Of a DNA stretch of 64,000 nt, positions 20,340-62,668 are shown in pieces (position 1 is the stretch's first letter; each line of letters begins with the position of its first letter). The stretch comes from Gloeomargaritales cyanobacterium VI4D9. Lineage in GTDB: Bacteria; Cyanobacteriota; Cyanobacteriia; Gloeomargaritales; Gloeomargaritaceae. The stretch lies in assembly GCA_927797885.1 (NCBI GenBank), contig OV696605.1, forward strand, positions 310,001 to 374,000, in the 5' to 3' direction. The notes beneath the pieces are model-generated. The model saw nothing but the letters and a program-made list of their open reading frames with translations. It was not told the DNA's origin and did not search any database. A program made the translations under genes and the position numbers.

Positions 20340-20350
20340 TGTGTTTTTAT

Positions 20351-20525
20351 CAGTAGTGTTGAACCCTGCAACAAAAGTTCATAAATTCGAGTCAGGCAAA
20401 ACATTTAATGAGAAGATTTTTCGTTATAAATGAGAATTTAGCTCCTAAATGACAATGTTTTGTATCATCAGGTTAGGTGCACATTTTGGCACAAACCCTC
20501 AAAATCTTAAGATTCAACACTTCTG
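20351..20525 (+). mobile_element. Family D MITE with 9-bp target duplication
   Basis: 175 bp with ends CAGTAGTGTTGAA and TTCAACACTTCTG. It is flanked by the perfect 9-bp direct repeat TGTTTTTAT (20342-20350 and 20526-20534). The first 30 bases follow the 3' terminus of the IS4-family element in this window (AGTGTTGAAyCCTGCAAyAAAA). It has no open frame of note. It therefore looks like a non-autonomous derivative mobilised by that transposase type. A second copy of equal length is at 32644-32818. Confidence 0.9.
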
Positions 20526-28658: not shown

Positions 28659-29766
28659 CACAAGTGTTGAATCCTGCAATAAAACTTTACATATTTAGGC
28701 GTGGGACGACCCGATTGAGCCAATGGACAAAATTCCACTCCTGCCGTATTAAGATTTGTATATATCGGAACTTATCTGCCAATTTACTTCCGTACATCCG
28801 TGGAACTTTTAACAGTTGCAATATCAAGTAAACTATTAAAATTACATAAATTTGAATGGTAATTCCATTCAAATTTTTACTCATCATTTTATCGAGCTTT
28901 AAGTTCATCTTTAGAAATTTCCATAGTACCTCTATCGCCCAGCGTTGTCTATAGGCTTCCCCTATCTCTTCATTACTCATTACATCCTCAGGAATATTGG
29001 TAGCTAAATAATAGTCTACTTTCTGTTGAACATTGCCAAAACAAACTACTCTCGCCTTACCTCGTTCTGTGGTGATATGATAGTTTTCATCCCATTTCCA
29101 ATTCGACTTAATACGGATAATAAAAAGGGCATCATTTTCGATAAATTGTTCAAATACTTTGTGACTGCAAAACCCTCTATCCCCGACTGCGACTCCATTT
29201 TCCGGTAGCATTTTCACAATATCTTCACCAAAATTAATCTCATGTGCCTGTCCAGGACTAACAATTAAATGACCAGTAGATTTCGTATCTTGATTCAAAG
29301 TGGTTATTAACTTTACTTGGCGATAGCCTTGGAGCCAAAATAACTTACTCATCAGCGGTATTACGGTAGCATCAAAAGGACATAAAACCAACCTCTTTTC
29401 AGGATGAGCTTCCTCAATATAATGCAATAATTTATGATAAAGATGCATAAAAATTTGTGGGTCTCTTGTCTTGTTCGCCTTAGAAAACGTGGATAAGTCA
29501 ACCTTAATGCCCGCATGATTTAATTGGTAAAATAAGTCCCGTAAACTGTTGATTCCTTTGTCTAAAATGCCAGCAAACCAGATTGAACAAAATAAGCGAG
29601 AATTTAGAACTGGATAATCATTAGTTGGCAGGTCTTTGAGTAAAAATTTGACAATCCCGGGAAAAGAATTGAATTTCATAGTTGTTTCATGTTTTGGTTT
29701 ATATGAATTAGAATACCATATTTTGACCCCTCTTTTTCTGCCTTTACCTACCTTTCAACACTTCTG
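28659..29766 (-). mobile_element. IS4-family insertion sequence, copy 1
   Basis: 1108 bp with imperfect terminal repeats CA(C/G)AAGTGTTGAA. It contains one transposase gene and is the same length as copy 2 at 61561-62668. The flanking 9-mers (ATCTAAAGC left, AAGATGAGA right) do not match, unlike copy 2, so the two sides are not a simple insertion product. The right end abuts a truncated reading frame (29767-30095). On the left lies a family A right-end fragment (CAAATAGGATTGCTATA). Confidence 0.93.
28687..29679 (-). CDS. IS4-family transposase (copy 1)
   Basis: 330 residues, intact. The DDE core is seen as CPFDATVIPLMS (first Asp), VAVGDRGFCSHKVFEQF (second Asp) and YRQRWAIEVLWKFLK, which is a canonical Y-(2)-R-(3)-E-(6)-K signature of the IS4 family. 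The translation is identical to that of copy 2, so one is a very recent duplicate. AT-rich like the accessory genes next to it. Confidence 0.95.
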   Translation of the reverse strand: MKFNSFPGIVKFLLKDLPTNDYPVLNSRLFCSIWFAGILDKGINSLRDLFYQLNHAGIKVDLSTFSKANKTRDPQIFMHLYHKLLHYIEEAHPEKRLVLCPFDATVIPLMSKLFWLQGYRQVKLITTLNQDTKSTGHLIVSPGQAHEINFGEDIVKMLPENGVAVGDRGFCSHKVFEQFIENDALFIIRIKSNWKWDENYHITTERGKARVVCFGNVQQKVDYYLATNIPEDVMSNEEIGEAYRQRWAIEVLWKFLKMNLKLDKMMSKNLNGITIQIYVILIVYLILQLLKVPRMYGSKLADKFRYIQILIRQEWNFVHWLNRVVPRLNM

Positions 29767-30095
29767 AAGATGAGACATTTGTAGATTTTATGAACCAGAA
29801 GCTAGAGGAAAAAATTAAGCATCTAATGGATAATCCGCTAAAGTGGTGTGGTGAATACCGTCCTCGAATTGAGAAACTAATTAGCGAAATCCGTGCTTAC
29901 CATTCTGAGCATATCAACTTCTCCTTGGTAAAAATCTTTGCAGGTACGACTATTGAAAGCCTAGATGCGAAGGCTCACAAAGGTATTCTTCCAGAGTTAA
30001 TTCAGCGAATAGACAGCGGTGTAAAACAGTCAGACAGCCTTGTAAAACAATCTGATCAAGCAGTTTTGCCTGTACCTGTGGAAGAAGATGATTGA
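29767..30095 (+). CDS. 5'-truncated ORF upstream of zorA-like gene
   Basis: The ATG at 29790 gives 101 residues (MNQKLEEKIKHLMDNPLKWC), but the frame is open without a stop back through EDETFVDF to the IS boundary at 29766/29767. The native gene therefore probably began further upstream and lost its 5' part. The C-terminal part has a short duplication (VKQSDSLVKQSDQAV) and an acidic end. Its last 8 bases overlap the zorA-like start, so it is translationally coupled to the motor pair. I do not recognise the family. Whether ATG 29790 rescues a functional product is unknown. Confidence 0.6.
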
Positions 30096-31812
30096 TAATC
30101 TGATAAGTTTAATTAGCGAATATATTGACAGATCATCCTTACTGAAGATATTCCTAGGGATAGGGTTGGTAATTGCTTTAATTAGTTTTGTTTTAAGATG
30201 GTTATTGTATCGAAGGTTGATAGACCTTATCCGATGGGCATCGACTGTTGATTCTTCTAGTGTTCAAGCCCCAAAACTCATTCGCAGTTTACGGGAGAGT
30301 ATCATGAACCTTTCGGCAGAAGAGCTAGGCAATGTTAACACAGTTGCCTTAGTAATGTATAACTTTACTAGTGAAAAACTCTTCCGAAAGTTAACACTAG
30401 AGAAAGCAGAGCATCTTACCCGAATTACCCCAAACTTACTAGTTGCTATTGGTCTATTAGGAACATTTCTAGGAATTACTATGAATCTTAGCAGTGTTGC
30501 CAGTGGTCTTATGGAAATAGATAGTTCGGCAACGACTACTATTTCTCTAACAGATTTGATTGAACGACTTAAACAGCCCTTAGAGGGTATGGCAGTTGCT
30601 TTTGTATCTAGCTTTTTCTGCTTGATATTAGGAATATTGGTTACCCTAGCGAACTCATTCTTGAATACCGATTTGGCAAAGCAATATCTTTTATCAGAAT
30701 TAGAATTTCGCCTTGATAAACTGGCGGGTCAGAGACAAAATCCTACGGGACGACTAATTCAATCAATTTCAGATAACTTTAGAATTTTTTTGGACAACTT
30801 TCAGGTAACTGTGAGGGATGCAATCGAAAGACCGCTTGAGCGGGAAATGTCACAACTTAGACAAATGAATCAAGAAAATGTAAAACTTGCCAATGATATA
30901 TTTATGAGATTTGACAGTGTCAGCGGAACTTTTATAGTCAGCTCACAGACTTTTGAACGTGCTGTTGATTTTCTACAAGAAATTGTTCTTTCCGAACAGT
31001 TCAGTAGGGCTGTAAGACAACTCTCACAACTCATTCAAGCTGTAGATAAAGCTAGTCAGACACAAATCAATTTGCAAAGGATCGCTGAGCAATTCGATAA
31101 TATCACTAATTCACTAGACCACATTCTGGCAATTCTTGGACAACTACCTAATAGTCTTGAAAGTATAAATCAAAACCTTGCCGAAGCTTCTAATTTGAAT
31201 CAGGAAAGAATCACAAGCATTATTGATAACCTAGGGGTTTTGATGACTCTTAGCCGAGATAACCAGGAAACGTATAACCAACTACTTGCCCGTCTTGAAA
31301 GTATAAATCAAAACCTTGCCGAAGCTTCTAATTTGAATCAGGAAAGAATCACAAGCATTGTTGATAACCTAGGGGTTTTGATGACTCTTAGCCGAGATAA
31401 CCAGGAAACGTATAACCAACTACTTGCCCGTCTTGAAAGTATAAATCAAAACCTTGCCGAAGCCTCTAATTTGAATCAGGAAAGAATCACAAGCATTGTT
31501 GATAACCTAGGGGTTTTGATGACTCTTAGCCGAGATAACCAGGAAACGTATAACCAACTACTTGCCCGCCTTGAAAGGGTAAATCAAAGTGTTGTCGAAG
31601 CTTCTAGTTTGAATCAGCAAGAAATTATCAGGAGCATTAATAAGATGCAAGAACTGATTGTTTCAAATCTGGAGTTTCAGAAGAAACTATCTGCCTACTT
31701 TGATAATTTAAGCGCAATGATTGCTAAGGTAGTCAATCAAGGAGTAAATCAATTTCGGGTACAGGAGTTTACTAATGAGCAAATGGATGAAAGTGATGAT
31801 AAAATTTGTTAA
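30088..31812 (+). CDS. ZorA-like MotA/TolQ/ExbB proton-channel protein with long repeat tail
   Basis: A 574-residue membrane protein. It has three hydrophobic segments, at about 17-40, 115-138 (NLLVAIGLLGTFLGITMNL) and 167-190 (AVAFVSSFFCLILGILVTLA). The second and third form the MotA/ExbB-type stator core. From about residue 210 to the end it is a hydrophilic, helix-forming tail, as in ZorA of Zorya defence systems. Residues 357-494 are three consecutive 46-residue repeats (start LESINQNLAEASNLNQERIT), with a diverged fourth beginning at 495. It overlaps the truncated ORF upstream and precedes the OmpA-like gene by 46 bases. Zorya identity is inferred from architecture and pairing; MotA-type motors with other roles exist. 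Confidence 0.75.
   Translation: MIDNLISLISEYIDRSSLLKIFLGIGLVIALISFVLRWLLYRRLIDLIRWASTVDSSSVQAPKLIRSLRESIMNLSAEELGNVNTVALVMYNFTSEKLFRKLTLEKAEHLTRITPNLLVAIGLLGTFLGITMNLSSVASGLMEIDSSATTTISLTDLIERLKQPLEGMAVAFVSSFFCLILGILVTLANSFLNTDLAKQYLLSELEFRLDKLAGQRQNPTGRLIQSISDNFRIFLDNFQVTVRDAIERPLEREMSQLRQMNQENVKLANDIFMRFDSVSGTFIVSSQTFERAVDFLQEIVLSEQFSRAVRQLSQLIQAVDKASQTQINLQRIAEQFDNITNSLDHILAILGQLPNSLESINQNLAEASNLNQERITSIIDNLGVLMTLSRDNQETYNQLLARLESINQNLAEASNLNQERITSIVDNLGVLMTLSRDNQETYNQLLARLESINQNLAEASNLNQERITSIVDNLGVLMTLSRDNQETYNQLLARLERVNQSVVEASSLNQQEIIRSINKMQELIVSNLEFQKKLSAYFDNLSAMIAKVVNQGVNQFRVQEFTNEQMDESDDKIC
31156..31569 (+). repeat. Three 138-bp in-frame tandem repeats in the ZorA-like tail
   Basis: Units at 31156-31293, 31294-31431 and 31432-31569, each beginning CTTGAAAGTATAAATC and nearly identical (ATT/GTT in unit 1, GCTTCT/GCCTCT in unit 3). 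A diverged fourth unit starts at 31570. 138 is a multiple of three, so gain or loss of a unit changes tail length by 46 residues without breaking the frame. Confidence 0.97.
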
Positions 31813-31858
31813 TATTTTCATTGATTGTTGTCCAGTGCTATCTTACCTTTAAGTTCCT

Positions 31859-32512
31859 ATGCGTCAGACTCGTCGCTACTCAGTACAAAAATCTGATGAG
31901 CTCAATGTGTGGATATCGCTGAGCGATTTAATGGCTGGAAGCCTTCTGATTTTAAGTCTGATGAGTTTTTTATTCTTTGCTCTTACTATTTTAAGCAAGA
32001 AGAAGGAAGGACTGCCCCTTGATGTTCCACCCATCATCATTATTCCTGATGATAGGGCATTTCGTTTTCCTGTAGGTAGTGCTCAATTGTCCCAGCCTTT
32101 GCGACAGTATATTTGGGGAAGCTTAACTCAAACTATTGTAACTAATCGCCGGAAATACAGGATTGACACAATCGAAGTCATTGGTCATACAGATGGTCAA
32201 CCTAATCAGATACCAAATGGCAATCTCGATTCATTGTTAGAAAATTCAGTAGCGGCAAAAAGACTAGATTCCCTAATCCCAAGCTCAAATGTAGATTTAG
32301 GACTGATGCGAGCATTGGCAATTACTATTGAACTGTACAAAGTTCAAACAAAGAAATACGAACTTAAAGGACTACAGTTTCGTGCTTACTCTGCAGGACA
32401 ACTTTACTTGCCCAATGGTAGTTTTGCTCTTCCTGACCGCAGCCCTGATAACTCTCGCCGTCGGATTGAGGTGCGTTTCATCCGATCCGCAACCACTAAA
32501 GTTATGAAGTAA
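31859..32512 (+). CDS. ZorB-like protein: single membrane helix plus OmpA-like domain
   Basis: 217 residues. The N-terminus NVWISLSDLMAGSLLILSLM has one membrane helix (about 24-46) preceded by Asp23, at the position where MotB-type stator subunits carry the proton-binding Asp. The periplasmic part (about 60-217) has the OmpA/MotB peptidoglycan-binding features EVIGHTDGQP, SVAAKRLDSLI and NSRRRIEVRF. Together with the upstream gene it would form a cell-wall-anchored, proton-driven complex of the Zorya ZorAB type. No ZorC, ZorD (helicase) or ZorE (nuclease) follows; the next kilobase is repeats and the convergent groEL. Confidence 0.78.
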   Translation: MRQTRRYSVQKSDELNVWISLSDLMAGSLLILSLMSFLFFALTILSKKKEGLPLDVPPIIIIPDDRAFRFPVGSAQLSQPLRQYIWGSLTQTIVTNRRKYRIDTIEVIGHTDGQPNQIPNGNLDSLLENSVAAKRLDSLIPSSNVDLGLMRALAITIELYKVQTKKYELKGLQFRAYSAGQLYLPNGSFALPDRSPDNSRRRIEVRFIRSATTKVMK

Positions 32513-32544: not shown

Positions 32545-32861
32545 TAACACTTCTATTTATTGATTTTTGTATTTACACAATGGGGCTGATAGCACAGCCA
32601 TAAATCCCATTCCTTGATTGGCAATTATCAATAACCCAGGGGTCAGAAGTGTTGAATCTTAAGATTTTGAGGGTTTGTGCCAAAATGTGCATCTAATCTG
32701 ATGATACAAAACATTGTCATTTGGGAGCCAAATTCTCATTTATAACGAAAAATCTTCTCATTAAGTGTTTTGCCTGACTCGAATTTATGAACTTTTATTC
32801 CAGGGTTCAACACTACTGCCCAGGGGTTATTCGCAATAGCCGTGAATAAATAGAGGTGCCC
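32545..32861 (-). repeat. Family B element interrupted by a family D MITE
   Basis: Two halves of one B element (32545-32643 and 32819-32861, right end AATAGAGGTGCCC) are separated by the D element at 32644-32818. Removing D and one copy of its 9-bp duplication restores the continuous B sequence ATAACCCAGGGGTTATTC. The left end is degenerate (AACACTTCTATTTATTG). Confidence 0.85.
32644..32818 (-). mobile_element. Family D MITE, copy 2, with 9-bp target duplication
   Basis: 175 bp, ends CAGAAGTGTTGAA and TTCAACACTACTG, flanked by the perfect direct repeat CCCAGGGGT (32635-32643 and 32819-32827). It is the same length as copy 1 at 20351, in the opposite orientation. Confidence 0.93.
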
Positions 32862-61559: not shown

Positions 61560-61560
61560 T

Positions 61561-62668
61561 CAGAAGTGTTGAAAGGTAGGTAAAGGCAGAAAAAGAGGGG
61601 TCAAAATATGGTATTCTAATTCATATAAACCAAAACATGAAACAACTATGAAATTCAATTCTTTTCCCGGGATTGTCAAATTTTTACTCAAAGACCTGCC
61701 AACTAATGATTATCCAGTTCTAAATTCTCGCTTATTTTGTTCAATCTGGTTTGCTGGCATTTTAGACAAAGGAATCAACAGTTTACGGGACTTATTTTAC
61801 CAATTAAATCATGCGGGCATTAAGGTTGACTTATCCACGTTTTCTAAGGCGAACAAGACAAGAGACCCACAAATTTTTATGCATCTTTATCATAAATTAT
61901 TGCATTATATTGAGGAAGCTCATCCTGAAAAGAGGTTGGTTTTATGTCCTTTTGATGCTACCGTAATACCGCTGATGAGTAAGTTATTTTGGCTCCAAGG
62001 CTATCGCCAAGTAAAGTTAATAACCACTTTGAATCAAGATACGAAATCTACTGGTCATTTAATTGTTAGTCCTGGACAGGCACATGAGATTAATTTTGGT
62101 GAAGATATTGTGAAAATGCTACCGGAAAATGGAGTCGCAGTCGGGGATAGAGGGTTTTGCAGTCACAAAGTATTTGAACAATTTATCGAAAATGATGCCC
62201 TTTTTATTATCCGTATTAAGTCGAATTGGAAATGGGATGAAAACTATCATATCACCACAGAACGAGGTAAGGCGAGAGTAGTTTGTTTTGGCAATGTTCA
62301 ACAGAAAGTAGACTATTATTTAGCTACCAATATTCCTGAGGATGTAATGAGTAATGAAGAGATAGGGGAAGCCTATAGACAACGCTGGGCGATAGAGGTA
62401 CTATGGAAATTTCTAAAGATGAACTTAAAGCTCGATAAAATGATGAGTAAAAATTTGAATGGAATTACCATTCAAATTTATGTAATTTTAATAGTTTACT
62501 TGATATTGCAACTGTTAAAAGTTCCACGGATGTACGGAAGTAAATTGGCAGATAAGTTCCGATATATACAAATCTTAATACGGCAGGAGTGGAATTTTGT
62601 CCATTGGCTCAATCGGGTCGTCCCACGCCTAAATATGTAAAGTTTTATTGCAGGATTCAACACTTGTG
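61561..62668 (+). mobile_element. IS4-family insertion sequence, copy 2, with 9-bp target duplication
   Basis: 1108 bp, from CAGAAGTGTTGAA to TTCAACACTTGTG. It is flanked by the perfect direct repeat GATTGCTAT (61552-61560 and 62669-62677). The same length and the same encoded protein as copy 1 mark it as a recent arrival. Confidence 0.96.
61648..62640 (+). CDS. IS4-family transposase (copy 2)
   Basis: 330 residues, identical in translation to the copy at 28687-29679, with CPFDATVIPL, VGDRGFCSHK and the Y-(2)-R-(3)-E-(6)-K motif YRQRWAIEVLWKFLK. The frame is intact, so the element is probably active or recently was. Confidence 0.95.
   Translation: MKFNSFPGIVKFLLKDLPTNDYPVLNSRLFCSIWFAGILDKGINSLRDLFYQLNHAGIKVDLSTFSKANKTRDPQIFMHLYHKLLHYIEEAHPEKRLVLCPFDATVIPLMSKLFWLQGYRQVKLITTLNQDTKSTGHLIVSPGQAHEINFGEDIVKMLPENGVAVGDRGFCSHKVFEQFIENDALFIIRIKSNWKWDENYHITTERGKARVVCFGNVQQKVDYYLATNIPEDVMSNEEIGEAYRQRWAIEVLWKFLKMNLKLDKMMSKNLNGITIQIYVILIVYLILQLLKVPRMYGSKLADKFRYIQILIRQEWNFVHWLNRVVPRLNM

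Follow-up and report, generated by a model that had tools for sequence, protein, structure and literature searches.

The paired genes for a ZorA-like and a ZorB-like protein (hereafter ZA and ZB) in the 64,000-nucleotide window, the whole stretch of Gloeomargaritales cyanobacterium VI4D9 DNA that we analysed, probably make up the downstream half of an operon of four genes, V-T-ZA-ZB, which is broken in this genome and whose intact form would be a motor acting on T, a predicted tubulin-like protein. The motor in the window has most likely been left without an output, as a relic or motor-only remnant. If the operon works as we infer, an ion motor of the Zorya kind (5:2) would be joined with a tubulin homologue, two components that are not known to meet; we found no report linking ZorAB to tubulin-like proteins in the open-licence literature. 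The window itself offers a more modest lesson, its operon being broken.

ZA (574 aa, 30088..31812, + strand) and ZB (217 aa, 31859..32512, + strand) fill the two open reading frames that an initial annotation, made from the letters alone, had placed at 30088-32512. Its description of ZA as a three-helix MotA/ExbB-type protein with a helical tail of ~360 residues agrees well with what was found: an N-terminal hydrophobic segment, a MotA/ExbB-like core and a long helical tail of ~340 residues, with the membrane core at residues ~1-230 and the tail predicted to be cytoplasmic. Its reading of ZB also stands. ZB has one transmembrane helix carrying Asp23, followed by an OmpA-type peptidoglycan-binding domain in which an IGHTD motif is invariant and which Pfam OmpA matches below threshold (E=0.061). 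Asp23 lies within the sequence WISLSDLMAG and is at least 90% conserved among 49 homologues. In the ZA core, G125-T126 and S175 are invariant, and T126 and S175 align with T147 and S184 of the ZorA structure 8qyd. As aligned, the ion-path residues of ZorAB (Asp23, Thr126 and Ser175) are retained in ZA and ZB. Both reading frames are open, and the genes are not chance products, because 54 of 386 cyanobacterial genomes contain the ZorA-like gene and dN/dS against congener G085 is 0.37 for ZA and 0.29 for ZB. No Rfam family was found in the 27.9-33.5 kb interval of the window, and promoter and terminator scans remained below chance level.

The kinship of this motor was assessed with profiles built from 53 ZA and 49 ZB homologues, the ZA profile being cut to its first 240 residues before the PDB search so as to exclude the coiled-coil tail. 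The ZA core profile matched type I ZorA (8vvn, 1e-9; 8qyh, 4e-7) and, at a greater distance, type II ZorA (8vvi, 0.004), with nothing besides ZorA below E=0.5. Even with matches admitted up to E=10, it picked up no chain of the MotA, TolQ, ExbB or gliding-motor families. The ZB profile placed ZorB at the top (8vvn_B, 4e-7) and PomB second (7e-5). A single-sequence phmmer search of the window ZA core against the PDB was not significant (best 8vvn, E=0.11), and the profile was needed. Judged by these profiles, ZA/ZB is a ZorAB-type motor whose nearest solved structures are ZorA and ZorB, as the initial annotation had held on the basis of architecture. It is extremely improbable that the pair is instead a MotAB, TolQR, ExbBD or gliding motor, the outcome that the annotation had named as contrary to its reading. 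ZA does share a fold family with MotAB, TolQR and ExbBD, Pfam MotA_ExbB gives it a weak match (E=0.34), and ZB also matches PomB; however, among solved motors the ZA core profile finds ZorA only, and the Pfam-level MotA/ExbB protein of this genome is a different gene, at C1:153,710. A Pfam MotA_ExbB search of the genome found that other gene and missed ZA.

Similarity to ZorAB does not make the pair a Zorya system. As in type I Zorya ZorAB (8vvn, 8qyd), which forms a 5:2 assembly, binds peptidoglycan and needs its tail for function (PMC11890865), ZA joins a MotA-like core to a long cytoplasmic helical tail, and ZB is a single-helix protein with an OmpA-type domain and an Asp (D23) that corresponds to D24 of type I and D21 of type II ZorB (PMC11890865). 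A ZorA-type motor and a ZorB with a transmembrane Asp and a peptidoglycan-binding domain are therefore both present. ZorC with ZorD would be expected alongside them in types I and III, and ZorE in type II, but none of these was found among the listed PADLOC matches of 219 sampled neighbour proteins (for the solo loci, 25 of 56 families being listed), nor, by reading, among the neighbours in the window, which are IS, kinase-like, GroEL and similar genes; the remark of the initial annotation that no ZorC/D or ZorE homologue follows was thus borne out. When the profile search that it had proposed was carried out, PADLOC ZorA1 matched ZA weakly (3.6e-7) and the ZorB1 models matched ZB (3e-8), but ZA scored 24.3 bits against the NCBIfam curated ZorA cut-off of 100 bits, far below it. 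The Zorya label is unsupported because ZorC, ZorD and ZorE are missing from the sampled neighbours and the scores lie far below the Zorya cut-offs; by these tests the pair is not a Zorya member. The suggestion of a Zorya type without recognised effectors does not hold either, the constant partners being predicted vWA and Tubulin_2 proteins rather than a nuclease or a helicase.

Those partners emerged from gene calls around the ZA loci of the 54 genomes, which represent 35 of 142 genera, and around 80 further named loci. The dominant layout is V (~380 aa), T (~1080 aa), ZA and ZB on a single strand, with median gaps of 18 (V/T), 77 (T/ZA) and 54 bp (ZA/ZB). It is complete at 76 of 136 related loci, a partly dependent set in which some genomes sit twice; once identical ZB were removed, 106 loci remained, 66 with T and 40 without. 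The nearest relative, G085 of the same genus, carries V-T-ZA-ZB intact. Among the 386 genomes, 43 carry V. ZA accompanies it in 40, and the remaining three contain damaged V only, with stops or as fragments; the co-occurrence of intact V with ZA has a hypergeometric p of about 1e-41. ZA without V, conversely, is common, and solo pairs are found in several lineages. Operon and solo layouts are intermixed on the ZB tree (7-9 changes), and T went undetected in most of the solo-pair genomes tested. V and T thus appear to need the motor, and the motor can exist without them; it seems able to work without T, because at ~40 of the 106 distinct loci ZA-ZB is accompanied by neither V nor T. The distances for all four genes of the operon are correlated (Mantel 0.81-0.93, against no more than 0.31 in permutations), which fits joint inheritance, with shared species history also contributing in part. 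The most divergent solo pairs (L082-L084) adjoin a gene for a Ser/Thr protein kinase that is oriented divergently.

In intact relatives T is a Tubulin_2 protein (PF13809; Pfam E=7e-79 and 5e-107) and, from these matches, belongs to the FtsZl1 group of the tubulin superfamily. Its model is of moderate confidence (pLDDT 73, pTM 0.52), and a fold search of that model against the PDB returned CetZ and tubulins first, with TM-scores that were modest to low; T may be non-polymerising. V at intact loci has a weak Pfam VWA_2 match (best 2e-4) and a DxTxS-type motif. Its model (pLDDT 84) comprises an N-terminal alpha/beta domain, a long helix at 247-280 that reads as a transmembrane segment and, at the C-terminus, a domain with matches to FHA domains, and V is accordingly modelled as a vWA domain, one predicted transmembrane helix and an FHA-fold domain. 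No signal peptide was found in the V sequences examined, and neither V nor T contains a nuclease, helicase or toxin domain.

Gene clusters of this kind have been noticed before. Makarova and Koonin (2010) predicted membrane remodelling from the gene context of FtsZl1/vWA/OmpA clusters (PMC2875224), and the intact cyanobacterial loci share with them a Tubulin_2 gene, an adjacent vWA gene and an OmpA-family protein, ZB. They differ in that the gene for a ZorA-type subunit separates those for T and the OmpA protein, which would make the latter a ZorB-type stator part. The text of PMC2875224 makes no mention of MotA, and the P-loop GTPase/kinase genes of its description lie outside the core cyanobacterial operon. 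In the present genome T survives as a C-terminal remnant only and the vWA gene is broken and displaced; by gene content the window holds a decayed member of a variant of the FtsZl1/vWA/OmpA system. vWA force transducers beside TolQ/TolQR-like motors, in which the vWA protein serves as the transducer itself or as the dimeric partner (PMC12204202), likewise combine a vWA protein with a motor of the 5:2 type, but no tubulin is described for them, whereas here ZorB is present and V bears an FHA fold.

The break itself can be followed closely. An IS4-type insertion sequence of 1109 bp (28659..29767, - strand, transposase 28687-29679) cuts the operon, and homology of the window to the G085 operon starts at 29764, right at the IS end. 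Downstream of it, the truncated gene at 29790..30095 (+ strand), which the initial annotation had considered a possible effector, is identified by homology to the intact congener gene as the last ~101 residues of the ~1058-aa FtsZl1/Tubulin_2 partner; its reading frame overlaps the ZA start by 8 bp. T residues 1 to ~947 are lost, and a search of the genome recovered only residues 948-1055 together with a 28%-identical FtsZl1 paralogue at C1:1,570,935. This second FtsZl1 (Tubulin_2) gene is intact (1122 aa, C1:1,570,921-1,574,289) with no ZorAB nearby, and the other two congeners carry it as well. V is represented by broken pieces only, beside IS copies at C1:705-706 kb. The V remnant (C1:705,440-706,346) lies on the opposite strand, 365 kb from T, ZA and ZB in the window; a 174-bp element, flanked by a target duplication of its own, interrupts it at C1:705,855-706,028, and the remnant ends at a gene for a 316-aa transposase and a further copy of the IS4-type element. 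A further copy of the 174-bp non-autonomous element, which shares its ends (AGTGTTGAA) with the IS4-type element, sits just past ZB (32645..32818, unstranded) and is 94% identical to the copy in V; another lies at 20350-20525 of the window. We attribute the breakage of the operon to an IS4-type element, to the non-autonomous element related to it and to one further IS.

The genome contains about 41 full-length copies of the IS4-type element, all identical, including a second one in the window at 61560-62668, and about 29 near-full copies of its relative. The IS4-type burst is very recent, with 9-10-bp target duplications at unrearranged copies, and because the copies are identical the operon break must be recent too. 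Two other IS4-type copies examined have target-site duplications; the copy at 28659-29767 has none, which argues for a rearrangement between IS copies rather than a simple insertion, and such a rearrangement is the likely cause of the break. A reciprocal exchange between this copy and the one beside the vWA remnant was rejected, because the sequences flanking either copy do not correspond to the target site of the other. With about 41 identical copies of 1.1 kb, an assembler could go astray, but we consider it very unlikely that the break is an assembly artefact concealing an intact operon: the first ~947 residues of T are absent from the genome, which is a single contig and 99.9% complete, and V was broken independently, by the 174-bp element and its separate target duplication. 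There is a somewhat better, though still small, chance that the pair continues to work alone here, as it may in the lineages with solo ZA-ZB. Such pairs arise several times on the tree, T was not detected in most of the solo genomes tested, and the window ZA and ZB are open with low dN/dS. However, the low dN/dS may predate so recent a break, and the promoter that once lay upstream of V has been lost. A remnant without output is the reading that we prefer.

For the intact operon, the most likely mechanism is that five ZA and two ZB would form a membrane motor, in which ions would pass at ZB Asp23, between ZA Thr126 and Ser175, and ZB would anchor the complex to peptidoglycan. The long ZA tail would reach into the cytoplasm and, to judge from the gene order, act on the assembly or position of T, while V would hold, tether or gate T at the membrane, possibly under the control of a phospho-signal through its FHA fold. 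In broader terms, cyanobacteria and Deinococcota may share an undescribed machine in which a ZorAB-type motor works on a tubulin-superfamily GTPase through its tail, with a vWA-FHA regulator, a proposal that we put forward tentatively. If it is true, Zorya would represent a single branch within a larger group of motors that bear tails and whose cytoplasmic outputs are interchangeable. Should the intact operon work as we propose, the 2010 FtsZl1/vWA/OmpA prediction would gain an energy source and a testable mechanism, its OmpA protein being a stator subunit. It would also suggest that ZorAB motors are not always parts of defence systems, so that cyanobacterial PADLOC-style ZorAB matches should not be read as Zorya.

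The purpose of the operon could be envelope remodelling or defence, and we regard defence as possible but rather unlikely. In that case the ZorAB-type motor would sense the damage that an entering phage does to the envelope, with V and T replacing ZorC/D or ZorE in an anti-phage system. Several observations point in this direction: the ZA core is closest to type I ZorA, its spread is patchy (54 of 386 genomes, 35 of 142 genera), related operons lie on Deinococcus plasmids, once beside an McrBC-like pair (AAA with EVE, and DUF2357/PDDEXK_7), and vWA and FtsZl1 pairs on Thermaceae plasmids adjoin brxL and helicase genes. Against this, V and T lack any nuclease, helicase or toxin domain, five Nostocales (clusters c9 and c10) keep the operon near the same housekeeping genes, and a viral collection yielded a single borderline relative. 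With PADLOC at 1e-10, 110 neighbours of intact operons matched 24 families, mostly with one gene each, and 109 neighbours of solo pairs matched 56, a count inflated by overlapping kinase/TnpB-type models, compared with 11 families for 110 control genes; the excess over control is small and made up of generic families. In cyanobacteria the context speaks little for defence; only in Deinococcota is it suggestive.

On four Deinococcus plasmids (NC_012529.1, NZ_CP097151.1, CP029776.1 and NZ_CP086382.1) the order tubulin-like, ZorA-like, ZorB-like is the same as in cyanobacteria. Their ZA-like proteins match the ZA profile at E 3e-16 to 5e-13, the cores agree in profile-profile comparison (E=3e-7), and ZB-like matches ZB at 2.5e-4. 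These operons differ in having extra genes, encoding a 108-aa membrane protein and, after the ZorB-like gene, LRV/DUF2336 and then kinase-SH3-beta-helix proteins, and in a first gene without sequence match to V; its layout is similar by eye, but profile comparison did not support homology. On one of these four plasmids (L207), other than the one with the McrBC-like pair, an IS630 directly follows a shortened tubulin gene. Three Thermaceae plasmids carry a vWA gene, a tubulin-like gene, a gene for a 677-aa-class protein and brxL, without a motor. These genes lie near RecQ, exonuclease, DUF1156 or Swt1-HEPN genes, with helicase or methylase neighbours, and FtsZl1 there seems to form part of a cluster of the BREX/DISARM type. 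Related ZA-ZB pairs that lack an accompanying tubulin gene occur on Rhizobium and Sinorhizobium plasmids, possibly as a separate motor system; the genes for the ZorA-like protein, annotated as MCP or hypothetical, and the ZorB-like protein come after two genes without an assigned function and lie close to transfer genes.

In the window the ZA tail contains a 138-bp (46-aa) tandem repeat in 3.4 copies (31154..31617, + strand). Tail length evolves fast, because repeat number and sequence differ between congeners and ZA ranges from 366 to 1108 aa among relatives. The 46-aa repeats are near-identical to one another, and the ZA tail of congener G085 has one repeat more than that of the window.
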